Shown here: positions 4,471-64,000 of the stretch, piece by piece
Position numbering within the stretch: position 1 is the first letter of the stretch
How the letters are laid out: the number at the start of each line of letters is the position of its first letter
NCBI RefSeq assembly: GCF_017313275.1
Contig: NZ_JAFLNM010000001.1
Coordinates: forward strand, 1,054,001-1,118,000
Direction: 5' to 3'
DNA from: Flagellimonas profundi
GTDB lineage: Bacteria > Bacteroidota > Bacteroidia > Flavobacteriales > Flavobacteriaceae
DNA: 64,000 bases
Notes under the pieces: generated by a model
Database searches by the model: none
The model's input: the letters and a program-made list of their open reading frames with translations, nothing else
What the model was told of the DNA's origin: nothing
Program-made: the position numbers and the translations under genes

Positions 4471-5805
4471 TTAAGGTACCGCTTTTACGATGTTTGACAG
4501 TACGCCGTTTATATCAAAATATGGTTCCTCGGCCAAACCTGTCCGCACAACGACCAAGTCTTTGGAAGGAATCATAAAAACATGCTGACCCTCAAAACCA
4601 TTGCAGGAAAACATATCCTTGGGCACATCGGGATATTTGCCTTCGGCATTGAGCCAAAAATGAGCTCCATAGGTGCCGTCGGAATTAGCAGTGGGCTCGC
4701 TTATATAATCAACCCAAGTGGAATCGAACAGTTGCTCTCCATTCCAGTTACCCCTATCCAAATGTAATTGTCCAAATCGTGCCCAATCCCTAGTGCTGGC
4801 CCATGCGTAGGAAGATCCTACATAATTTCCTGCGATGTCTGCCTCCAAAACCATGGAATACATCCCAATTTTATCGATCAAAGCGGAGTAAGGGAAATCC
4901 AAATACTCTTGGTGACTCCGAAACTGTTGCCTTAGAATTCCGGATAGTAGATTGGTTGTTCCAGAAGAATAGTTCCAAACTTCTGTAGGTTCTGCAATTG
5001 CTTTTTTATTACGCTGGGCCTGGGTCATGTCGCTGTCCAAGAACAACATTCGGGTAACATCGGATATCCCTGTGTAATCTTCATCCCAGGCCAAACCACT
5101 TTGCATACGAAGTAAGTGGTTCAAGGTTATATTCTTTCGCTCATCATCTTTCCATTCTGGAATAGGAGCCGGCCAATCCATTTCCAATTTTCCCTGGTGT
5201 TCCAAAATCCCATAACAAGTGGCCAAAACACTTTTTGTCATGGACCAACCTAAAATAGGGGTGTCCTTATCAAAACCATTAATATATTTTTCAGCGATTA
5301 AGTGGCCCTTGTAAAGAATTAGTAGCGTTCTTGTTTTTTGTGTTTCAGGCTCCGCAAATGCCATGGCAATCGCCTTATTGATTTGGTCCATATTTACTTC
5401 CGGAAGAACACTGTCAATAGGGGCAGCTTGTCCATAAGGATACGGAATAGTATCTGCTAGTTGGGTTCTTTGTGGACGAATGGTCAATTTTTCTGGGTCG
5501 TAATCGTCATTGATCAAAACCGCTCCAAGCCCATCCCTATAAACCGCTGTACGTTCCATAAGACCGTAAACCGTTGATGATGCGGATTCTTCACTTTCAT
5601 TCACCTCGGTCGAAGCTATTTCAATAAGGGGAGCACTATTATCATATTGGTTCATGCTAGCTGCTGAACGCTGGGCCACAAATACCCCGGAGGCCATATT
5701 TTTGGCCGCATAACCAGAGATAATATTCAATTTGGGATAATTAAAATAGATGGCTGCTCCGATTACGATAATAAGGAGCAGTAAAACACGCTTAAGTAGT
5801 TTCAT
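4471..5805 (-). CDS. Membrane-anchored serine hydrolase (beta-lactamase class C family)
   Basis: I start at the ATG at 5805 (MKLLKRV, 444 residues), which puts a single uncleaved membrane segment LLLLIIVIGAAIYF at the N-terminus; an ATG at 5850 adds 15 charged residues and would nearly abut the divergent pirin gene. The body is the serine beta-lactamase-like / penicillin-binding transpeptidase fold: nucleophile motif GWSMTKSVLA (Ser-x-x-Lys), a second motif WNYSSGTTN in the Tyr-x-Ser/Asn place, and a C-terminal GFEGQHVFMIPSKDLVVVRTG that fits the third, usually HxG-like, strand. Such proteins are mostly D-aminopeptidases or esterases rather than resistance enzymes. Likely periplasmic, inner-membrane tethered. 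Confidence 0.85.
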   Translation of the reverse strand: MKLLKRVLLLLIIVIGAAIYFNYPKLNIISGYAAKNMASGVFVAQRSAASMNQYDNSAPLIEIASTEVNESEESASSTVYGLMERTAVYRDGLGAVLINDDYDPEKLTIRPQRTQLADTIPYPYGQAAPIDSVLPEVNMDQINKAIAMAFAEPETQKTRTLLILYKGHLIAEKYINGFDKDTPILGWSMTKSVLATCYGILEHQGKLEMDWPAPIPEWKDDERKNITLNHLLRMQSGLAWDEDYTGISDVTRMLFLDSDMTQAQRNKKAIAEPTEVWNYSSGTTNLLSGILRQQFRSHQEYLDFPYSALIDKIGMYSMVLEADIAGNYVGSSYAWASTRDWARFGQLHLDRGNWNGEQLFDSTWVDYISEPTANSDGTYGAHFWLNAEGKYPDVPKDMFSCNGFEGQHVFMIPSKDLVVVRTGLAEEPYFDINGVLSNIVKAVP

Positions 5806-5856
5806 GGTTATAGGATGTATTTGTAACTTTCTGCGTCTAAATATAAACATTTATAC

Positions 5857-6729
5857 ATGTCCAACATCGGATTGATTATTGAAGAACGGAGTAGGGATAT
5901 CGGCGATTTTTTAGTGGGGAGACTTATTCCTTTCCGAAAAAAGCGGATGATCGGTCCGTTTATTTTTATAGACCACATGGGACCCACAAAATTGGGACCC
6001 ACAAAGTATATGGATGTAGACCAGCATCCGCACCTGGGTCTATCCACTTTGACTTTTATGTTGGAAGGGGAATTGATCCATGAGGACAGTCTTGGTACCC
6101 ATCAACGTATTAAACCCGGTTCTGTAAACTGGATGACGGCAGGGAAGGGGGTGACCCATACGGAAAGAACACCTGAGGATTTACGCAATGGCAATTCATT
6201 TATCGCCCATGGTTATCAAATTTGGGTGGCGCTACCAAAAGAATTGGAAGATATGGAGCCACAATTCCACCATATTGATGAAAAGGATATACCGAAATGG
6301 ACCGACGGCAATACCGAATTTAAATTGGTGGCCGGAGAAGGTTATGGCAAAAAATCGCCCGTCCCCGTTCACTCCAATCTTTTTATGGTAGAGGTCAAAA
6401 ACAAAGATGCCTACACCCTCAATGTAAATGGAGATTTAAAAGGAGAAATAGGTATTTGCATTGTAGAGGGAAGTATAGAGGCCTGCGGTGAAACGGTGGA
6501 GGAAGGAAACATTTTGGTATCCAAAGTGGAGGACACCTGTAACATCAAGCTTAAACCCAACACCCATTTAATGTTGTTTGGTGGAGAGCCTTTTCCTGAA
6601 GAACGCTATATTTATTGGAATTTTGTTTCTTCCAGTAAAGAAAAGCTGGAACGGGCCAAAAAGTCATGGAGGGATAAAACTTTTCCGATGATGCAGAATG
6701 ATGGCACCTATGTTCCATTGCCAAACTAA
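5857..6729 (+). CDS. Pirin family protein
   Basis: A 290-residue bicupin. The metal site of the N-terminal cupin is visible: HPHLGLSTLTFMLEGELIHED gives the paired histidines, and GVTHTERTPED supplies the third His and Glu. GSVNWMTAGKG is the family signature. The C-terminal cupin holds NVNGDLKGEIGICIVEGSIEACG and LMLFGGEPFPEERYIYWNFVSSS. Pirins bind Fe and some have quercetin 2,3-dioxygenase activity or act as redox-sensing cofactors; which applies here is unknown. No signal peptide, cytoplasmic. It is divergent from the serine hydrolase and 23 bp ahead of the cytochrome/FG-GAP gene, so it may head that operon. Confidence 0.92.
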   Translation: MSNIGLIIEERSRDIGDFLVGRLIPFRKKRMIGPFIFIDHMGPTKLGPTKYMDVDQHPHLGLSTLTFMLEGELIHEDSLGTHQRIKPGSVNWMTAGKGVTHTERTPEDLRNGNSFIAHGYQIWVALPKELEDMEPQFHHIDEKDIPKWTDGNTEFKLVAGEGYGKKSPVPVHSNLFMVEVKNKDAYTLNVNGDLKGEIGICIVEGSIEACGETVEEGNILVSKVEDTCNIKLKPNTHLMLFGGEPFPEERYIYWNFVSSSKEKLERAKKSWRDKTFPMMQNDGTYVPLPN

Positions 6730-6752: not shown

Positions 6753-8240
6753 ATGCCAGACCAATTAAGAGTATCTTATTCGATTACCATGCTTGCGCTC
6801 CTTGTTTTAATGGGGTCCTGCAAAAAAGAAAAACCAAAACAAGAAGAAGCACAACTTTACAACAAATACTGCGCAAGTTGCCATTTAGCCCCAAAAATTG
6901 AAGAATTGACCAAAGAAGTTTGGAAAAAATCCGTACTACCGGCCATGGTAGCTCGCATGGATGTTGAAGGAATGTATCAGGACCCGAATGAAGTCAAGCC
7001 TGGTTTTAGACCACAAATCACTTTAAAAGAGTGGGCGCAACTGGAAAATTATATCATATCCAATGCTCCGGAAAAGTTGGAAACAATACAAGTTCCCAAG
7101 GCGGACACCCTGCAATCTTTCACGGTCAGACCATATGCCTTGGATAGTCAGAACGGAGCCCTTATCACCTATGTGGAGTTCATGAACGGAGAGAATCCCT
7201 TATTCTTTGGAGACCTTACAGGAAATTTGAGCTCTTTTGATTTTTCAGAAGAAACCACAGAGCAACTTTATCAAGGAAAAACCCCAGTCACCTGGTATAG
7301 CAAAAAAGACTCGGTTGAAATTATCAGTGAAGTGGGGATTTTGGGACCATCCGAATTGGAAAAAGGAAAACTGACCCGTAAAATTGGAAAAGACACCATA
7401 TCCTTACAAAACAGCTTTCACAGGCCAGTGCATACCCTTCTGGAAGACTTAAATGGCGATGGCAAAAACGAAATTGTGGTCAGTGAATTCGGAAATGAGG
7501 CCGGGAGATTATCCCTTTTGATTCAAAACGAATCGGGACAATATGACAAAAAAGTATTATTGAACCTACCTGGAGCAATAAGAACGGTAGCTCGAGATAT
7601 GGACGGTGATGGAAAAACGGATATTGTGGCCTTAATGACCCAAAGCAATGAAAGCATCACTATTTTTTATCAAACCGACGATTTGGAGTTCCAAGCCAAA
7701 AAAGTATTGGAATTTAGCCCAGTTTATGGGACCAGTTGGTTCGAGCTCGTCGATTATAATGGTGATGGCCTCGAGGATATTATCACTGTACAGGGGGACA
7801 ATGCCGATATTTCCTATGTGAACAAACCCTACCACGGAATGAGAATACATCTCAATAATGGGGATGGCACATATTCCGAATCGTACTTTTATCCGTTATA
7901 TGGAGCTACAAGAGTGGTATCCAGGGATTATGACCAAGATGGTGACCTAGACTTTGCATTGATCAGTACCTTCCCTAATTATTTGGAGTTTCCCGAGCTC
8001 ACTTTTGTTTACTTGGAAAACAAGGACTCCGAAAATTATGTCTTTTCCACTAAGATTCTGGAAGACCCCACTTTAGCTCGTTGGTTTTTAATGGACGCCG
8101 CTGATATTGACAATGATGGGGATGAAGACATCGTTTTAAGTTCCCTTACACTGGGCTTTACACCGGTTCCCGAGGTTTTATCGGAACGATGGAAAGAAAG
8201 CAATGTCGATATTGTGGTTTTGGAAAATTTATTGCATTGA
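6753..8240 (+). CDS. Cytochrome c-like lipoprotein with FG-GAP/VCBS repeats
   Basis: 495 residues. The signal peptide ends in a lipobox LMGSC (Cys23); a start at the internal ATG of codon 13 would still carry it. Next comes one haem c motif, C40-A-S-C43-H44, with a short cytochrome-like helix region ending at about residue 110, including a methionine (VLPAMVARMD) that could be the distal ligand. From about residue 215 on there are FG-GAP-type beta-propeller repeats with calcium-loop signatures such as DLNGDGKNE, DMDGDGKTD, DYNGDGLED, DYDQDGDLD and DIDNDGDED. Bacteroidota use this cytochrome-plus-propeller layout in surface or periplasmic proteins of unclear function. The stop codon overlaps the TTG start of the next gene. 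Confidence 0.85.
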   Translation: MPDQLRVSYSITMLALLVLMGSCKKEKPKQEEAQLYNKYCASCHLAPKIEELTKEVWKKSVLPAMVARMDVEGMYQDPNEVKPGFRPQITLKEWAQLENYIISNAPEKLETIQVPKADTLQSFTVRPYALDSQNGALITYVEFMNGENPLFFGDLTGNLSSFDFSEETTEQLYQGKTPVTWYSKKDSVEIISEVGILGPSELEKGKLTRKIGKDTISLQNSFHRPVHTLLEDLNGDGKNEIVVSEFGNEAGRLSLLIQNESGQYDKKVLLNLPGAIRTVARDMDGDGKTDIVALMTQSNESITIFYQTDDLEFQAKKVLEFSPVYGTSWFELVDYNGDGLEDIITVQGDNADISYVNKPYHGMRIHLNNGDGTYSESYFYPLYGATRVVSRDYDQDGDLDFALISTFPNYLEFPELTFVYLENKDSENYVFSTKILEDPTLARWFLMDAADIDNDGDEDIVLSSLTLGFTPVPEVLSERWKESNVDIVVLENLLH

Positions 8241-8674
8241 AAAAATGGATCGCCACAGCATTTATAATATTCATTGCTTGTTCACCAAAAGAGCAAGCAC
8301 CGGCAGAGCCTATTTCAAAATATAAGTGGTACGGTCACCAAGTTACGGCATCGGCCTACAATTCCGTTTATTGGCAAACTGATAGTATTAGCCCAACAGT
8401 AGCGGCCTGGGGAGATACATTAAAACCTGGAATGAAAAGTATTGCTGTCTCAAGAGACCTTGTAGAATTGGGGCTGACCCATAACACCATGGTCAAAATA
8501 GATACTTTTCCCGATACGTTTTATGTAAAGGACAAAATGCATTATCGGTGGAAAAACCGAATCGATATTTATATGGGCAAAGACGTAAAAAAAGCAAGGG
8601 AATGGGGTAAAAAACAAGTAATGATATGTTACGCGGTTCCTATGGATATTGACACAAATAATACCACTAAATGA
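8237..8674 (+). CDS. 3D-domain lipoprotein (MltA/RlpA-like double-psi barrel)
   Basis: I take the TTG at 8237, which overlaps the TGA of the previous gene (TTGA), giving LKKWIATAFIIFIAC, a proper lipoprotein signal (145 residues). An ATG at 8189 would put a charged, cysteine-rich leader in front. The mature part is the 3D domain named for three aspartates: TAWGDTLKP-type strand (AAWGDTLKPGMKSIAVSRDLVELGL), MVKIDTFPDTFYVKDKM, and the final NRIDIYMGKDVKKAREWGKKQV. The fold is shared with lytic transglycosylase MltA and binds or cleaves peptidoglycan. Overlap with a peptidoglycan amidase downstream supports a cell-wall role. Confidence 0.8.
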   Translation: MKKWIATAFIIFIACSPKEQAPAEPISKYKWYGHQVTASAYNSVYWQTDSISPTVAAWGDTLKPGMKSIAVSRDLVELGLTHNTMVKIDTFPDTFYVKDKMHYRWKNRIDIYMGKDVKKAREWGKKQVMICYAVPMDIDTNNTTK

Positions 8675-9339
8675 AAAAAGCTGGCATTGCTATAACATTT
8701 TTGATTGTTTTTGGGGCATGCTCCACGCATAGGGAAATCGTGGATATTCCCATTATTTTTGATGAGCAACGGATTGAATTGACCAAGGAATACTTGTTGA
8801 ACAGGTACGAACTTGATCAGGATACTCCCGAGATAGTCCCCAAAATGGTAGTCCTACATTGGACCGCCATACCTTCCCTAAAAAAATCGTTTGAAGCCTT
8901 TAATAGATCTACATTGCCCAATTGGCGGCCCGATTTGGAGAATGTGAGCGGCTTGAATGTTTCCTCGCACTTCCTTGTTGATCAAGACGGCACCATTTAC
9001 CGGTTAATGCCCGAAACCACCATGGCAAGACATACCATTGGCTTGAACCATTGTGCCATTGGCATCGAAAATGTTGGCGGTACCGATGGAATGCCCTTGA
9101 CCAGGCAACAGCTCAAATCCAATATTTTTTTGGTGGACTATTTGGCATCAAAATATGACATTGACTATGTGATCGGTCATCAAGAATACACCTTGTTCGA
9201 AGGGCACCCCCTTTGGCTGGAAGTGGACGATGGGTATCGAACCGAAAAAACAGACCCAGGAATGGATTTTGTTGAAAAAGTAAGGAATGCCACTAAAAAA
9301 TTTAATTTTAAACCTGTACCAAGAAAAAAACACGAATGA
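8671..9339 (+). CDS. N-acetylmuramoyl-L-alanine amidase (amidase_2/PGRP fold)
   Basis: 222 residues with a lipobox signal (FLIVFGAC). Zinc amidase features: first histidine in MVVLHWTAIPSLKKSF, central SSHFLVDQDGTIYRLMPETTMARHTIGLNHCAIGIENVGG, and IGHQEY near residue 170, which in AmpD-like enzymes carries the proton-relay/ligand region; the final ligand Asp appears in KTDPGMDF. It cleaves the bond between muramic acid and the stem peptide, here probably in the periplasm. The ATG overlaps the upstream stop (ATGA at 8671), and its own stop overlaps the next start, so the three genes are translationally coupled. Confidence 0.9.
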   Translation: MKKAGIAITFLIVFGACSTHREIVDIPIIFDEQRIELTKEYLLNRYELDQDTPEIVPKMVVLHWTAIPSLKKSFEAFNRSTLPNWRPDLENVSGLNVSSHFLVDQDGTIYRLMPETTMARHTIGLNHCAIGIENVGGTDGMPLTRQQLKSNIFLVDYLASKYDIDYVIGHQEYTLFEGHPLWLEVDDGYRTEKTDPGMDFVEKVRNATKKFNFKPVPRKKHE

Positions 9340-10781
9340 AAAAGCAGCTTTTACCTTTATTGATAGTACTGTTCGGATTTTCCCTGCAAGCACAGGACAA
9401 ACTCACATCCCAACTCTACGAGACGTACGAGAACTACAAAGAATCAAGCATTGGGGAACGAAGAATAAAACATGCCGACATTCAACCTTTGATTCAAAAA
9501 TTTAAGGCCAATCCCAAGTTTGAGGTTCAAAAAGTTGGAGCCTCCATTGAAGGCAGGGATTTACACTTGATCAGTATAGGTTCGGGGGACAGCAATATTT
9601 TTTTATGGTCGCAAATGCACGGAAATGAACCTACTGCCACCCAAGCGATTTTTGACATTCTTAATTTTTTGGATGCCCCTGAGTTCAAAGAAGAGAAGGA
9701 AGCGATACTTTCCAAACTGAAGCTTCACTTTTTACCTATGCTCAACCCTGATGGGGCGGAAGTGTTCACTCGAAGAAACGCCCTGGGAGTCGATATTAAC
9801 AGAGATGCCCTTCGGTTACAGTCTCCAGAAGGACAGACCCTAAAACGACTTCGAGACAGTCTGGATGCCGATTTCGGTTTTAACCTTCATGATCAGAGCA
9901 AATACTACAATGCCGAACGTACCGAAAAACCCGCCACCATATCGTATTTGGCCACGGCTTACAATTACGAAAAGGACATCAACGAAGTACGTGCCAATGC
10001 CATGAAAGTGATTGTGTACATGAACAAGATCATACAAAACTATGCCCCAGGTCAAGTAGGCCGCTATAGTGACGATTTTGAGCCTAGGGCCTTTGGTGAT
10101 AATATTGCCAAGTGGGGCACAAGCTTGATCTTGATTGAATCTGGAGGGTACCCAAGGGATCCGGAAAAGCAGGAGATCCGTAAACTCAATTATGTATCCA
10201 TTCTTTCCGCCCTATACACCATGGCCAACGAGTCTTACAAGGATATTCCTATAGAGGATTATGAAAAAATTCCACGTAACAATCGAATGTTGTTCGATCT
10301 TAAAATTGAAAATGTGAGCTACGAGCTTTTAGGGGATGATTATATTCTTGACCTGGGGATTTTTAACAATGAAGTGGATTTGGAAAACCACAACGAATTT
10401 TATTTCAGAAGCACAGTTGCCGATCAAGGTGACCTGTCCACTTACTACGCCTACAAAACTTTTGATGCCGAAGGCTACACCGTAGTTCCACCAAAAGTCT
10501 CGAAAGTGGATCGGATTGAAGATCCCATGCGTTTATTAAAAGATGGTGTTGCCTATGTTAAAATAGAAAGGCCGGAAAAGAGTGCCTTTGTGCATTTTCC
10601 ATTGATGTTGGTGGACGAAAAATTCGAAATAACGGACTTTAGGCTTCAGCCCGGCATCAACCCGACCTTCTTTTTAAAGAAAGATGGAAAACTGACACAC
10701 GCCGTGGTCAATGGTTTTCTGATAGACCTATCTAAACCTTTGGATGCACAGCATACCGGTAATGGTTTGATTCTAGATTAA
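9336..10781 (+). CDS. M14 family zinc carboxypeptidase, secreted
   Basis: 481 residues. Signal peptide LLPLLIVLFGFSLQAQ. Zinc site: HGNEPTATQ (His-x-x-Glu, about residue 90) and the third ligand in FGFNLHDQSKYYN (about 188); MLNPDGAEVFTRRNALGVDINRD is the classic M14 substrate-binding block with Asn-Arg, and SLILIESGGYPRDP carries the general-base Glu. A C-terminal beta-rich part of about 130 residues follows, as in periplasmic Bacteroidota members. Starting on ATGA within the amidase stop, it may trim stem peptides released by the amidase, or act on peptides in general; the substrate is inference. Confidence 0.9.
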   Translation: MKKQLLPLLIVLFGFSLQAQDKLTSQLYETYENYKESSIGERRIKHADIQPLIQKFKANPKFEVQKVGASIEGRDLHLISIGSGDSNIFLWSQMHGNEPTATQAIFDILNFLDAPEFKEEKEAILSKLKLHFLPMLNPDGAEVFTRRNALGVDINRDALRLQSPEGQTLKRLRDSLDADFGFNLHDQSKYYNAERTEKPATISYLATAYNYEKDINEVRANAMKVIVYMNKIIQNYAPGQVGRYSDDFEPRAFGDNIAKWGTSLILIESGGYPRDPEKQEIRKLNYVSILSALYTMANESYKDIPIEDYEKIPRNNRMLFDLKIENVSYELLGDDYILDLGIFNNEVDLENHNEFYFRSTVADQGDLSTYYAYKTFDAEGYTVVPPKVSKVDRIEDPMRLLKDGVAYVKIERPEKSAFVHFPLMLVDEKFEITDFRLQPGINPTFFLKKDGKLTHAVVNGFLIDLSKPLDAQHTGNGLILD

Positions 10782-10821: not shown

Positions 10822-11286
10822 ATGAAAACAAGAGCGATTTTATTAAGTCTTTTGACTGTGATACTGTTCTATGGTTGTGGCCAAGATCGATCAAAACTTC
10901 TGATCAATAACTTTGTTGATGAATTGGTTGTTTCTGGTAAAATTGAAAACATTGAAGAATTTCTAGGTCTAGGTGAAGAAGTTAAGTCCAAGCCTAACTA
11001 TCTTGCGTTTTTAGAAAAGTACTTTATATATATGAGGAAGGAATTGGTGGATGATTGCAACATGGATTACGAAGTGTTAAGCTTTGACGAAGTTGAAAAT
11101 TCCAACTTGAGTACTTTTCATCAATACGAAAAAAATTATTCGAAATTTAAACAAGTATATTTTATCATCTGTAGTGGAGAAATAGTATTGCCCATTATTA
11201 TCGAAAACAATAGGATTATCTCTTTTCAAAGTAATATTCTTAAAAAATCGGGAGGGGATTATTCCCCCTTTCTGCTGAACAAATAA
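10822..11286 (+). CDS. Hypothetical lipoprotein
   Basis: 154 residues with a lipobox signal (TVILFYGC). I recognise no domain. The mature part is predicted mixed alpha/beta, with a helical KIENIEEFLGLGEEVKSK segment and a hydrophobic strand pair VYFIICSGEIVLPIIIENNRII near the C-terminus; a Cys pair (DDCNMD, IICSG) could form a disulfide. It follows the carboxypeptidase by 40 bp and precedes a DUF1080 gene by 44 bp, all on the same strand. Confidence 0.65.
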   Translation: MKTRAILLSLLTVILFYGCGQDRSKLLINNFVDELVVSGKIENIEEFLGLGEEVKSKPNYLAFLEKYFIYMRKELVDDCNMDYEVLSFDEVENSNLSTFHQYEKNYSKFKQVYFIICSGEIVLPIIIENNRIISFQSNILKKSGGDYSPFLLNK

Positions 11287-11330: not shown

Positions 11331-11930
11331 ATGAAAAAACAAATTTTGGTAGGACTTTGCCTGTTGGTGGCACAATTGACTTTCGCCCAAGAACCCATTG
11401 CCCTTTTTAACGGGGAGAACCTGGATGGTTGGATCAATCACGGAGAAGAAAAATGGTTTGTGGAGGATGGCGAACTCATCTGCGAAAGTGGCCCAAAAGC
11501 TGAGTATGGCTATTTATCCACGGAAAAATTCTATAAGGATTTTGAATTGACCTTGGAATTTAAGCAAGAGGCCGACGGTAATAGTGGTGTTTTTATCCGA
11601 TCCACGTTTGAAGGCACCAAAGTAAGTGGCTGGCAGGTTGAAGTGGCTCCTCCTGGAAAAGATACGGGTGGTATTTATGAATCCTACGGTCGTGGTTGGT
11701 TGATAAAACCTGACCCCGAAAAAGACAAAGCCCTAAAAATGGGGGAGTGGAACACCATGAAAATCCGTGTGAAAGGCCCTGAGGTCACTTCTTGGCTCAA
11801 TGGTGTGGAAATGGTTCATCTAAAAGATGAAAAAATTGGGGAAGGCGAAGGTGCCATTGCCCTCCAGATACATGATGGTGGCGGTATACGAGTAAAGTGG
11901 AGAAACATTCAGCTCGTTCCTTTGGATTAA
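11331..11930 (+). CDS. DUF1080 (3-keto-disaccharide hydrolase-like) secreted protein
   Basis: 199 residues: signal peptide LVGLCLLVAQLTFAQ, then one DUF1080 jelly-roll domain. Signature pieces: IALFNGENLDGWINHGEEKWFVEDGELIC, the STEKFYKDFELTLEFKQEADGNSGVFIRS block, VEVAPPGKDTGGIYE, and IALQIHDGGGIRVKWRNIQL. Members include enzymes that hydrolyse 3-keto-glycosides; most are uncharacterised. It ends just before a bidirectional terminator and faces a longer DUF1080 paralogue on the other strand. Confidence 0.88.
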   Translation: MKKQILVGLCLLVAQLTFAQEPIALFNGENLDGWINHGEEKWFVEDGELICESGPKAEYGYLSTEKFYKDFELTLEFKQEADGNSGVFIRSTFEGTKVSGWQVEVAPPGKDTGGIYESYGRGWLIKPDPEKDKALKMGEWNTMKIRVKGPEVTSWLNGVEMVHLKDEKIGEGEGAIALQIHDGGGIRVKWRNIQLVPLD

Positions 11931-11937
11931 CAACAAA

Positions 11938-11970
11938 AGAAAAGCCCGATTTTCAAATCGGGCTTTTTTT
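11938..11970. terminator. Bidirectional rho-independent terminator
   Basis: AAAGCCCGATTT / AAATCGGGCTTT, a 12-bp perfect stem with a 2-nt loop and T/A runs on both sides, between the stops of two convergent DUF1080 genes. Confidence 0.9.
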
Positions 11971-11989
11971 ATCTCTAAACCAATAGCTG

Positions 11990-12937
11990 TTAATTTTTCA
12001 AAGGAGTTACTTCAAAGCTTTTGTACTCAATAGGGCCGTGGTCTCCCTGAATCATGAACGGACCTGGTTCCCCCTCTTTACTGTCCAAAGCGCCTCCTGT
12101 GATTCCAGGGATAGTGGCATCGGAAATTACGGTTTTCCCGTTCAGCGTTACGGTAACCCTTCGTCCAATTAAAGTGATATCGTAGGTCTGCCATTCACCC
12201 GCTGGCTTGGAAGCATTTTCATTCGGTTCCAAAAAGCCGTATACACCACCTAGATAAATATCGGAAGGTTCGTACCCTTCGCTATCCACAATCTGAACCT
12301 CATAACGTCCACGCAAGTAAATACCACTGTTACTTCCTTCGGGGTAGCGGAATTCCACGTGTAGTTTAAAATCTTGGAATTTTTCATCGGTAATCAAGTT
12401 GGAACCGGATTCGGGACTGGTCAAAATACCATCTTTTACCATCCATTGGTTCTTTTCCCCATCTACATGCCATCCCGAAAGATCTTTACCGTTGAAGACA
12501 TCAATGGTCTTTCCCCACTTCGGGTTTTCCGTGTACTCCAATTCAGGTGCTTTTACACCGGTCCAATGAATAATGGAACCATCGGTATAAATCATGGTTC
12601 CCTTTAATGTATCACCGTCCAGCTCACCGTGGAAAATCATATCGCTACCCTTTGGTTCCCATTGGTTGGGAATACTAAAAGTGAATTTGTTCTCACCAAA
12701 GGTTTTTACTTCGGCAACGGGCCTTGCGCTACCAAAAGCAAAAACAAAACGGCCTACGAGTGTAGCAGTTCCCGAATGTCTAATTTCCAACCAAGAAGGG
12801 GATGTCTTCCCCATAAAATCCATTTCCAGGTCCCATCGGCCCTCTAAAGGACTGATATGCTGGGCGTATATATGGCTTGTAAAACCTAAAAGTAAGGCGC
12901 AAATAAAAGTGTAAACTGTTTTTCTTTGGGTATTCAT
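11990..12937 (-). CDS. DUF1080 protein with N-terminal lipocalin-like domain, secreted
   Basis: 315 residues. Signal peptide YTFICALLLGFTSHIYAQ. Residues about 28-125 form a small beta domain (LEGRWDLEMDFMGKTSPSWLEIRHSGTATLVGRFVFAFG...) like that in other glycoside-acting Bacteroidota proteins, followed by a DUF1080 jelly roll: TIDVFNGKDLSGWHVDG, FKLHVEFRYPEGSNSGIYLRGRYEVQI, YGFLEPNENASKPAGEWQTYDITLIG, and GGALDSKEGEPGPFMIQGDHGPIEYKSFEV. It is longer than the convergent DUF1080 neighbour and more like the family's 3-keto-glycoside hydrolase members. Secreted or periplasmic. Confidence 0.88.
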   Translation of the reverse strand: MNTQRKTVYTFICALLLGFTSHIYAQHISPLEGRWDLEMDFMGKTSPSWLEIRHSGTATLVGRFVFAFGSARPVAEVKTFGENKFTFSIPNQWEPKGSDMIFHGELDGDTLKGTMIYTDGSIIHWTGVKAPELEYTENPKWGKTIDVFNGKDLSGWHVDGEKNQWMVKDGILTSPESGSNLITDEKFQDFKLHVEFRYPEGSNSGIYLRGRYEVQIVDSEGYEPSDIYLGGVYGFLEPNENASKPAGEWQTYDITLIGRRVTVTLNGKTVISDATIPGITGGALDSKEGEPGPFMIQGDHGPIEYKSFEVTPLKN

Positions 12938-61015: not shown

Positions 61016-62995
61016 TTAATATTGATATAATTCAATTAATTCCGATTCAAATCGCTTTTTGGGCAAAAAATTGGCTTCCAGCGATTTTGCGAAGGGCACT
61101 GGGGTTTCCAAGCTCCCTACTCTTTTCACTGGGGCGTCCAAAAACTCAAAACAGTTCTCCATTACCATGGCAGAAATATCGCTTGCTATACCTCCAAATA
61201 AAGTGTCTTCTTGCAAAATGATCATCTTGCCTGTTTTTTTGATCGATTTGAAAATGGTTTCCGTATCCAATGGTTGAAGGGTTCGAAGATCAATCAGATC
61301 TACATCGATCTCCGGGTGTTTTTCCAATACTTCAAGAGCCCAATGCACCCCAGCGCCATACGTGACCACGGAAATGGACTCCCCCTCCTGCAAAAGCTTT
61401 GCTTTACCAAAAGGCAAGGTATAATAATCGGTAGGTACATCGCCCTTAATGCTTCTATATAATCCTTTGTGTTCAAAAAACAAGACAGGGTTCGGGTCGT
61501 TTATGGCCGTGTTCAACAAACCTTTGGCATCATAAGGAAAAGCGGGGTACACCACTTTTAAGCCCGGGGTCTTGGTAAACCAGGCTTCATTGGTCTGTGA
61601 ATGGAAGGGACCTGCCCCCACTCCACCACCGCAAGGCATTCGAATGACCACATCGGCGTTCTCATTCCATCGATAATGTATCTTGGCCAAATAATTGACT
61701 ATTGGGTTGAACCCAGAGCTTACAAAATCAGCAAACTGCATCTCAACTACAGCCTTCATCCCGTTAATGGACAATCCCATGGCGGTGGAAACTATCGCTG
61801 ACTCACAAATGGGTGTATTGCGCACCCGACTTTTCCCAAATTTGGGCACAAAACCTTCGGTGATTTTAAAAACACCTCCATAATCCGCCACATCTTGCCC
61901 CATGATAATGAGTTCGTTATGCCTGTACATGGATTGCTCCAATCCTTGGGAAATGGCATCCACGAGCCTTACATTTTGTGTTGTGTTTGATTCTGGTTTA
62001 ATTTCTTGATAATCAAATTCTTGATATACCTCTTTTAACTCCTTACTTTCATATGAAGAAACATCAGGCTCATCAAAGGCCAACTGCAGATTGGAATTGA
62101 TTTCTTCCATGATTTCCGCCTTGTATTCCTCAACGAACTCCTCGGTGAGCACACCTTCTTCCAATAAAAAGCTTTCGTAGTTGGAGATTGGGTCTTTCTT
62201 GCCCCACTCTTTCATTAACTTATCGGGAACATACTTGGTGCCACTCGCCTCCTCGTGCCCGCGCATGCGAAAAGTTTTGAATTCCAACAACACAGGTCTT
62301 GGCCTTCGCCGAATAGCTTTGCACAATTCGTCCACTTTGGCAAATACCTCGAGAATATTGTTTCCGTCAATAATTCTAGACTCGATACCATACCCCTTGG
62401 CCCTATCTGCCAAATGCTCACAGTTGTATTGCTCGTTGGTGGGCGTGGAAAGCCCGTAACCGTTGTTTTCAATACAGAACAACACAGGTAGGTTCCATAC
62501 CGAGGCTACGTTCAAAGCTTCGTGAAAATCTCCTTCGCTGGTAGCACCTTCCCCGGTAAAAACAGCGGTGACACGCTTTTTTCTACGTAGCATATCCGCT
62601 AAGGCAATCCCATCGGCCACCCCTAATTGAGGGCCCAAATGGGAAATCATCCCCACAATCTTGTATTCCTGGGTTCCAAAATGAAAACTTCGGTCCCTGC
62701 CTTGGGTAAAACCACTTTGTTTGCCCTGCCACTGTGCAAAAAGTCGGTTCAGGGGAATGTTTCTTGAGGTGAACACCCCAAGGTTCCGGTGCATGGGAAG
62801 AATGTATTCACTATCCTTGAGCGCTTTGGTAACGCCCACGGAAATTGCCTCTTGCCCTATACCACTAAACCATTTGGAAATTTTGCCTTGCCGAAGAAGA
62901 ATCAGCATTTTTTCCTCTATCAATCTGGGCTTCAGCATGCCTTTGTACAAATCCAACAACTTTTCGCGTTCGAAGCTGCCAACATGATACCTCAT
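61016..62995 (-). CDS. Branched-chain 2-oxoacid dehydrogenase E1, alpha and beta fused
   Basis: 659 residues. The first half (about 15-330) is E1 alpha, the ThDP-binding part: TAVFTGEGATSEGDFHEALNVASVWNLPVLFCIENNGYGLSTP. The second half (about 340-659) is E1 beta: VRLVDAISQGLEQSMYRHNELIIMGQDVADYGGVFKITEGFVPKFGKSRVRNTPICESAIVSTAMGLSINGMKAVVEMQFADFVSSGFNPIVNYLAKIHYRW, ending with the PDH-beta C-terminal block VTYGAGVHWALEVLEKHPEIDVDLIDLRTLQPLD. It decarboxylates 2-oxoisovalerate-type acids for branched-chain acyl-CoA and iso-fatty acids, with E2 and E3 elsewhere. Fused versions are common in Bacteroidota. Confidence 0.93.
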   Translation of the reverse strand: MRYHVGSFEREKLLDLYKGMLKPRLIEEKMLILLRQGKISKWFSGIGQEAISVGVTKALKDSEYILPMHRNLGVFTSRNIPLNRLFAQWQGKQSGFTQGRDRSFHFGTQEYKIVGMISHLGPQLGVADGIALADMLRRKKRVTAVFTGEGATSEGDFHEALNVASVWNLPVLFCIENNGYGLSTPTNEQYNCEHLADRAKGYGIESRIIDGNNILEVFAKVDELCKAIRRRPRPVLLEFKTFRMRGHEEASGTKYVPDKLMKEWGKKDPISNYESFLLEEGVLTEEFVEEYKAEIMEEINSNLQLAFDEPDVSSYESKELKEVYQEFDYQEIKPESNTTQNVRLVDAISQGLEQSMYRHNELIIMGQDVADYGGVFKITEGFVPKFGKSRVRNTPICESAIVSTAMGLSINGMKAVVEMQFADFVSSGFNPIVNYLAKIHYRWNENADVVIRMPCGGGVGAGPFHSQTNEAWFTKTPGLKVVYPAFPYDAKGLLNTAINDPNPVLFFEHKGLYRSIKGDVPTDYYTLPFGKAKLLQEGESISVVTYGAGVHWALEVLEKHPEIDVDLIDLRTLQPLDTETIFKSIKKTGKMIILQEDTLFGGIASDISAMVMENCFEFLDAPVKRVGSLETPVPFAKSLEANFLPKKRFESELIELYQY

Positions 62996-63075
62996 ACAAT
63001 AAAATTCTGTTCGTTAAATGTAGTAAAAAGCCTTTCAAAACACCTTAAAATTCCAAAACCTTCGGCATTATTCCC

Positions 63076-63083
63076 TATTTTTG
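63076..63083 (+). promoter_or_regulatory. Candidate -7 box (TATTTTTG)
   Basis: TATTTTTG matches TAnnTTTG 22 bp before the ATG of the oxygenase gene; no clear TTTG at -33. Confidence 0.35.
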
Positions 63084-63105
63084 GGCAGATTCCAAATATG
63101 ACAAT

Positions 63106-64000
63106 ATGAGTGCTATTCCAAGCGTGGACCTGAAAGATTTTGTTTCAGGCGACCCAAAAAGAAAAGAAAAGTTTGTCAAAGAAATAGGTGCTGCTTTCGA
63201 GGATATCGGTTTTGTGGCCCTAAGCGGACATTTCCTGTCCGATGAACTGGTCGAAGACCTATATACAGAAATAAAAAAGTTCTTTAACCTACCACAGGAA
63301 ACCAAGGACAAATACGAGATTGAAGGTATTGGAGGGCAGCGCGGGTACACCTCCTTCGGAAAAGAGCATGCCAAGGGCAAAAAAGAAGGAGACCTGAAAG
63401 AGTTCTGGCACTTTGGCCAGTATGTGGAAGATAATCCCAAATTGGAAGCGGAATACCCGGATAATGTTACTGTAGAAGAACTTCCCGATTTTAATCGAGT
63501 TGGAAAGGAAACCTATAAAATGCTGGAAAAAACAGCAAAATACGTATTGCGGGCATTGGCCTTGCACTTGGGTCTGGAAGAAACCTATTTTGACGACTAT
63601 ATTAAAAATGGCAATTCCATTTTAAGGCCGATTCATTATCCCCCCATTACCGAAGAACCCAAAAACGCAGTGAGAGCAGCGGCGCATGGCGACATTAATT
63701 TGATCACCTTGTTGATGGGCGCTCACGGAAAGGGGCTTCAGGTAAAGGACCATCAAGGAAACTGGGTGGATGCCATTGCCCAACCGGACCAATTGATGAT
63801 CAATGTGGGGGACATGTTGTCCAGATTATCCAACAACAAGCTTAAATCCACTATTCACCAAGTTGTGAACCCTCCAAAGGAGCTTTGGGGCACATCCAGA
63901 TACTCTATTCCGTTTTTTATGCACCCAATAAGCGATATGCCGCTCAACTGCCTGGAAAACTGTATCGACGAGGAACACCCAAAAGCCTTTGCGAATATTA
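63106..64000 (+). CDS. 2-oxoglutarate/Fe(II) oxygenase (isopenicillin N synthase family), cut by window edge
   Basis: The frame runs from ATG 63106 (MSAIPSVDL) to the window end, 298 residues seen, so the C-terminus is missing. N-terminal DIOX_N part: GAAFEDIGFVALSGHFLSDELVEDLYTEIKKFF. The jelly-roll core has ILRPIHYPPI, AAAHGDINLITLL (the His-x-Asp of the iron site), LMINVGDMLSRLSNNKLKSTIHQVVNPP (the second His) and RYSIPFFMHP (the Arg and Ser that hold 2-oxoglutarate). Non-haem Fe(II) oxygenase; substrate unknown. Divergent from the branched-chain E1 gene. Confidence 0.9.
   Translation, partial: MSAIPSVDLKDFVSGDPKRKEKFVKEIGAAFEDIGFVALSGHFLSDELVEDLYTEIKKFFNLPQETKDKYEIEGIGGQRGYTSFGKEHAKGKKEGDLKEFWHFGQYVEDNPKLEAEYPDNVTVEELPDFNRVGKETYKMLEKTAKYVLRALALHLGLEETYFDDYIKNGNSILRPIHYPPITEEPKNAVRAAAHGDINLITLLMGAHGKGLQVKDHQGNWVDAIAQPDQLMINVGDMLSRLSNNKLKSTIHQVVNPPKELWGTSRYSIPFFMHPISDMPLNCLENCIDEEHPKAFANI

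Follow-up and report, generated by a model that had tools for sequence, protein, structure and literature searches.

In a stretch of 64,000 nucleotides from Flagellimonas profundi, a flavobacterium of marine type (contig NZ_JAFLNM010000001.1, positions 1,054,001 to 1,118,000; hereafter the window), four genes follow each other head to tail on the + strand between positions 6753 and 10781, in the order haem c/FG-GAP propeller lipoprotein (gene 1, the haem gene), 3D-like lipoprotein (gene 2), Amidase_2 lipoprotein (gene 3) and M14 peptidase (gene 4), and are joined by three consecutive 4-base start/stop overlaps. We favour, with a probability of roughly 60%, the reading that genes 2 to 4 form a cassette acting on murein fragments, and that gene 1 is a facultative, co-transcribed haem c/propeller lipoprotein whose function is separable from murein cleavage. 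This reading is based on gene order, overlaps, domain content, residue conservation and the patchy presence of gene 1 among relatives. A preliminary description of the same DNA had proposed that a redox or adhesion function is tied here to cell-wall turnover; the linkage and the overlap behind that proposal are real and probably old, whereas an obligate tie is unsupported.

Gene 1 (6753..8240, +; 495 amino acids), the accessory member of the cassette, encodes a monohaem c-type/VCBS (FG-GAP) propeller lipoprotein, and its TGA stop (8238-8240) overlaps the TTG start of the 3D-like gene at 8237, giving a TTGA junction (8237..8240, +). Gene 2 (8237..8674, +) encodes a 3D-like (double-psi-type barrel) lipoprotein of 145 amino acids; a program-made list of open reading frames began it at an ATG at 8189, inside gene 1, and the TTG at 8237 yields a lipoprotein signal. 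ATGA overlaps then join the 3D-like gene to the amidase gene (8671-8674) and the amidase gene to the M14 gene (9336-9339). Gene 3 (8671..9339, +) encodes an Amidase_2 (AmpD/AmiD-type N-acetylmuramoyl-L-alanine amidase) lipoprotein (Pfam score 76.2 bits, cut-off 26 bits) and gene 4 (9336..10781, +) a M14 zinc peptidase of 481 amino acids with an N-terminal signal peptide (55.7 bits, cut-off 21.6 bits). Lipoprotein and signal-peptide calls were made by eye. The chain of overlaps reported in the preliminary description, from the haem gene stop through the amidase to the M14 gene, was thus confirmed at all three junctions. Overlaps of 1 or 4 bases occur in 6 of the 42 same-strand neighbour pairs of the window, and three of these six belong to this run, which is presumably read as one transcript.

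The persistence of this arrangement was followed in 60 genomes of the same genus, a family-wide set of 120 genomes, each from a different genus, and 247 genomes of the phylum. In the genus, the amidase and the M14 gene occur in 59 genomes each, against 57 for the 3D-like gene and 29 for the haem gene. The amidase and M14 genes are adjacent in 59/59 genus loci and 20/20 family loci, and the 3D-like gene lies at most 2.5 kb from the amidase in 57/59 and 11/20 loci, respectively. The haem gene adjoins the murein genes in 20 of the 29 genus genomes with a homologue and is absent beside 39 of the 59 murein loci of the genus. In the family, 22 genomes yielded the haem family (E 1e-30), 20 the amidase and 23 the long form of the M14 peptidase; the haem gene stands beside the amidase or the M14 gene in 10 of the 22 genomes with a homologue and apart from them in 12. 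These family co-location counts cover all 25 places of the haem gene, all 20 places of the amidase, 15 of 47 places of the 3D-like gene (those in genomes with an amidase) and 23 of 136 M14 places (the long form, scoring at least 397 bits). One of the ten linked family loci (in genome G011; G and L numbers are our handles for genomes and loci) retains only a 152-amino-acid remnant of the haem gene, leaving nine intact linked loci, the window's included, among the 120 one-per-genus genomes. In the phylum, the haem family was found in 27 genomes (E 1e-40), the amidase in 12 (E 1e-30) and both in five, among which the haem gene is adjacent to the amidase only in the genome of the window itself. 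Two genomes (G025 and G113) carry a haem gene and no amidase match, and another (G086) keeps the haem gene with the M14 gene and has no match to the 3D-like gene or the amidase.

The amidase and M14 genes are therefore the constant part of the locus and the haem gene an accessory one. The expectation that all four genes stay together across flavobacteria held for the amidase and M14 pair but not for the haem gene, which stands beside murein genes in 20 of the 60 genus genomes and 10 of the 120 family genomes, so that the quartet is not found in most relatives. Whether the haem gene is usually found apart depends on the level considered: 27 of 31 members of the group described below are together with murein genes, 12 of the 22 family genomes with a homologue have it apart and, of the five phylum genomes with both the haem family and the amidase (among 27 with the haem family), one has them adjacent. 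Since 39 of 59 genus loci dispense with gene 1, and since gene 1 occurs without an amidase match in G025 and G113, any tie between haem and murein is optional. Several irregular loci were also seen: an extra reading frame of 328 amino acids lies between the 3D-like gene and the amidase in L132 (G124), and the M14 match is interrupted by a TGA in L140 (G169) and L135 (G136), suggesting decay or assembly error. In other genera (L120, L121 and L122), the 3D-like gene adjoins homologues of the window genes at 61016-64000, which we take by eye to be a 2-oxoacid dehydrogenase and a 2-oxoglutarate-Fe oxygenase; the 3D-like gene thus seems to have shifted from one of two places to the other.

At the linked loci of the genus, the junction of the haem gene with the 3D-like gene is well kept. 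Of these 20 loci, 19 have the next gene starting at a TTG or GTG that overlaps the TGA of the haem gene (TTGA or GTGA, classified by eye), and this overlap is therefore not a chance feature; in other genera, one of three linked loci having the 3D-like gene directly after the haem gene shows an overlap. In a tree of 52 haem-propeller proteins (two fragments, L030 and L056, being omitted), all 27 intact linked proteins fall in a single group of 31, with a Shimodaira-Hasegawa-like approximate likelihood ratio test (SH-aLRT) value of 95, and the arrangement is thus probably old. The four remaining members of the group, from G025, G113, G169 and G161, are apart from murein genes. Linked haem proteins persist between genera at 37-49% identity. 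A joined tree of the amidase and M14 proteins from 79 loci, 29 of them with the haem gene if the remnant is included, implies 14 changes of its presence in the locus, at least seven of which are forced by well supported branches; long branches meet in this tree, and both trees come from quick searches assessed by SH-aLRT only. The haem gene lies between the pirin gene and the 3D-like gene in 19 of 20 linked genus loci, the twentieth locus starting at a contig end. Repeated loss is the simplest account of this patchy presence, and repeated gain at one site by recombination may also have occurred.

The product of gene 1 combines two parts. An N-terminal lipobox, LMGSC, was read by eye, which places the haem c attachment motif YCASCH (CxxCH at residues 40-44, with C40, C43 and H44; 6870..6884, +) in a predicted exported protein. 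This motif is present in all 123 homologues and Met65 (6945-6947, +), the likely second axial ligand, in 121 of them. Covalent attachment of haem would be possible in this organism, whose own genome encodes a cytochrome c assembly protein above the Pfam cut-off (PF01578). A FG-GAP_3 domain (PF13517) scores 92.4 bits against a cut-off of 26.9. In the AlphaFold2 model, a confident one (predicted local distance difference test, pLDDT, 89.4; predicted template modelling score 0.86), helices lie within residues 31-104 and a beta propeller occupies residues 117-495 (7101..8237, +), with which the protein ends; the best structural match spans residues 117-494. This match (VIA-align) is the propeller of fungal aldos-2-ulose dehydratase (AUDH; 4a7y, Z 29.2, 3.5 Å over 343 residues, 12% identity), followed by integrins (Z 26.9 at best) and CRTAC1 (Z 26.1); integrins make up most of the match list, which informs on the fold only. 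Searches of the PDB by sequence gave weak matches, AUDH not being among them, and a profile search returned cytochromes c, also weakly, at E 0.18 and worse.

The preliminary description asked whether the CxxCH motif and the propeller always reside in the same protein, and they do: the motif lies upstream of the propeller in 123/123 distinct full-length homologues. These are frames that score at least 200 bits against a profile itself containing the haem domain and that reach the end of the propeller, five partial sequences being set aside. Among distinct frames taken as a control, CxxCH is present in 127 of 128 at 200 bits or more, in 5 of 11 between 100 and 200 bits and in none of 53 below 100 bits, the latter being other FG-GAP proteins of the same loci. 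Since the motif dwindles below 200 bits, the haem marks this family and not FG-GAP proteins at large. Besides the DxDxDG loops, several polar residues are nearly invariant in the 123 homologues, namely R224 (123), N350 (122), H361 (122), K358 (121), E300 (119) and D349 (117), two of them in a K358-x-x-H361-G362 motif (7824..7838, +). They may cluster in space. Such conservation would be surprising in a simple scaffold and suggests that the propeller has a site for a ligand or for catalysis.

The 3D-like protein gave no Pfam match at E 0.001. In its homologues, the 3D domain is the sole family listed (4/4 tested). The predicted structure of gene 2 (pLDDT 75) is consistent with a double-psi barrel, its matches, all weak, being headed by expansins, with YuiC (4wjt) further down the list (E 3.7e-3, 20% identity). 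Four aspartates, D60, D74, D99 and D110, are invariant in 68/68 aligned sequences. In the amidase, H63, E133, H170, K193 and D195, to which we assign zinc-binding or catalytic roles after AmpD, are invariant in 79/79 sequences, and in the M14 peptidase, H95, E98, H185, R147 and E268, presumably the HxxE...H zinc ligands and the functional arginine and glutamate by reference to carboxypeptidase A, are kept in 79-80 of 80. Because these catalytic residues are intact, both enzymes are predicted to be active.

We propose that the trio works in the periplasm, given the lipoprotein-like sequences of genes 2 and 3 and the apparent export of the gene 4 product. The cassette would be a periplasmic or outer-membrane device that dismantles murein fragments: the 3D-like barrel lipoprotein would bind or cleave the glycan, the AmiD-like lipoprotein amidase would free the stem peptide, which the exported M14 peptidase would then trim in a MpaA-like step. 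Gene 1 would add to the same compartment a small N-terminal c-type haem domain carried by a seven-bladed VCBS propeller with a conserved polar site; the protein would most likely bind a small, sugar-like ligand on the propeller and relay electrons through haem c. This putative function would be common to relatives located in polysaccharide and phosphatase/peroxidase loci.

Several points weigh against this reading. The predicted murein activity of the cassette rests on family membership. The amidase misses the cut-off of the AmpD equivalog (NCBIfam NF008758, 36.9 against 143 bits) and the peptidase that of the MpaA equivalog (NF007897, 18.6 against 157 bits), and 'AmpD-like' and 'MpaA-like' are therefore descriptions only. 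Gene 2, announced in the preliminary description as a 3D-domain protein, has homologues for which this domain is the sole family listed and a predicted fold resembling double-psi barrels but falls below the Pfam cut-off for the domain (PF06725, 14.8 against 23.8 bits); in other genera, the amidase has a 3D-like gene nearby in just 10 of 19 cases. Gene 1 matched no Pfam cytochrome family at E 0.001. Finally, retention of the overlap by 19 of the 20 loci in the genus suggests that co-translation is under selection there, which would be needless for a wholly separable gene.

Among other explanations, it is possible, if unlikely, that the haem gene is a pure passenger, an old insertion unrelated to murein in a block of genes kept by inertia. 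The block formed by menB, a serine hydrolase gene, the pirin gene, the murein genes and a VWA gene is indeed largely constant: most family loci are bordered by menB, serine hydrolase and VWA genes, and 57 of the 59 genus loci have the serine hydrolase, the two exceptions being on short contigs. In the window, the pirin gene (5857..6729, +; Pfam Pirin/Pirin_C) ends 23 bases before the haem gene and, from this spacing, is probably the first gene of the transcription unit; it lies at most 120 bases from the 3D-like gene in 30 of the 39 genus loci devoid of the haem gene, whose patchy occurrence at one site also fits an insertion. However, the haem gene is part of a series of overlapping genes in which a start/stop overlap has been retained, and it has been maintained across genera at the identities given above; inertia alone might have left more remnants than the one (in G011) seen among ten linked family loci.

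The obligate coupling implied by the preliminary description, in which the haem-propeller would regulate the murein enzymes or give them redox equivalents, so that wall turnover follows redox state, appears improbable. It accounts for the three consecutive overlaps, for the start-on-stop geometry of 19 of 20 linked genus loci and for the grouping of intact linked members from nine genera (the window's counted), but it is at odds with the 39 of 59 genus murein loci lacking an adjacent haem gene and with the two group members without an amidase match (G025 and G113); in addition, we know of no redox chemistry in Amidase_2 or M14 proteins. We are similarly doubtful that the protein is an adhesin or scaffold, with an integrin-like propeller that anchors partners or substrate and a structural haem: the propellers of integrin alpha and CRTAC1 are among the best structural matches, but the near-invariant R224, K358, H361 and N350, additional to the DxDxDG loops, resemble a ligand-binding or catalytic site, and CxxCH is present in all 123 full-length homologues. 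Very improbable, lastly, is a murein-sugar enzyme that would oxidise or open anhydromuramyl or amino-sugar ends freed by the 3D-like protein and deliver electrons to its own haem c, an idea that draws on the modelled propeller being nearest in fold to AUDH, which works on an anhydro-sugar, although a common fold need not mean common chemistry; if true, peptidoglycan would have an oxidative breakdown route confined to some species.

Relatives of the haem-propeller protein occupy diverse loci. In G012, the haem-propeller gene is followed by a PhoX-type gene and a di-haem CCP_MauG peroxidase gene identified by Pfam, and neighbours of the same sizes in G114 and G074 suggest a second recurrent partnership (loci L115, L116 and L117). 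Others lie beside sulfatases (G169 and the uncultured bin L164), beside TonB/SusC-type and SusD genes in Dyadobacter (L153, with ten further loci carrying the same neighbour clusters, not each identified by Pfam), beside CRTAC1-like FG-GAP/UnbV genes (G127), beside a purple-acid-phosphatase-type gene in a Saprospiraceae metagenome-assembled genome (L157) and beside a creatininase/asparaginase/CutC set in an Algoriphagus one (L172). Of the 80 named loci of distant relatives, 49 had their neighbours tabulated, some of these being identified by Pfam, and no partner common to all was seen. The haem-propeller could thus be a general-purpose redox or ligand-binding envelope protein recruited by various loci, the murein locus being one stable recruitment.

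The divergent serine hydrolase gene (4471-5850, -; Pfam Beta-lactamase) starts 6 bases from the pirin gene, and a penicillin-binding or D,D-peptidase role of its product would fit the murein theme. Downstream of the M14 gene, an orphan lipoprotein-like frame of 154 amino acids (10822-11286) is found in only 3 of 59 genus loci. Two convergent genes of the 3-keto-disaccharide hydrolase (DUF1080) type follow (11331-12937; the first by Pfam, the second by eye). We considered them as electron-chain partners of the haem gene and rejected them: genus loci retain them (42 and 46 of 59) whether or not the haem gene is there, and several haem-positive family loci, like many other genera, lack them. A Bacteroidota-type promoter pattern matched twice in the window, where 4.1 matches were expected, and neither match is near the operon; scans of the window for sigma-70-like promoters (15 against 17.3 expected) and terminator-like structures (11 against 8.6 expected) were near chance.

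The locus is an unusual but explicable operon variant, in which the link between haem and murein looks like convenience more than necessity. The haem c/VCBS-propeller family with its near-invariant polar site, present in 27 of 247 phylum genomes (E 1e-40), is a Bacteroidota family judging by its named relatives. A keyword search of the literature found, among the matches listed, no description of this family and no paper linking FG-GAP/cytochrome c proteins to flavobacterial peptidoglycan. The patchy partnership offers a natural experiment, with sister species that have or lack the haem gene at the same site; if the haem protein has no influence on wall turnover, the locus warns against inferring function from start/stop overlaps.

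Each component of the locus resembles known systems and departs from them. AUDH carries cupin domains. VCBS-superfamily propellers such as those of AUDH, CRTAC1 and alpha-integrin are seven-bladed and have DxDxDG loops as predicted for gene 1, which shares only 8-14% identity with them and has an N-terminal haem c domain. The propellers of AUDH and integrins are placed in one VCBS supercluster in PMC8023676. The predicted fold of gene 2 resembles YuiC (4wjt) and expansins, as would be expected of MltA/YuiC 3D-domain (double-psi barrel) proteins, but gene 2 misses the Pfam 3D cut-off and its expansin matches outrank YuiC. Gene 3 shares the Amidase_2 domain and the zinc and catalytic residues of Escherichia coli AmiD and AmpD, and AmiD is a lipoprotein, as gene 3 appears to be; it differs in running with 3D-like and M14 genes and in missing the AmpD equivalog cut-off. 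Gene 4 has in common with MpaA and other M14 peptidases the Pfam assignment, the HxxE...H zinc ligands and E268, but at 481 amino acids it is longer, has a signal peptide and misses the MpaA cut-off. Hydrazine-synthase-like clusters comprise propellers, peroxidase-like subunits and a FG-GAP gene, according to PMC12758564. Like the G012 locus, they join propeller, c-haem and peroxidase-type proteins; the proteins and the placement of haem are different, and the likeness is one of composition, with no homology claimed.

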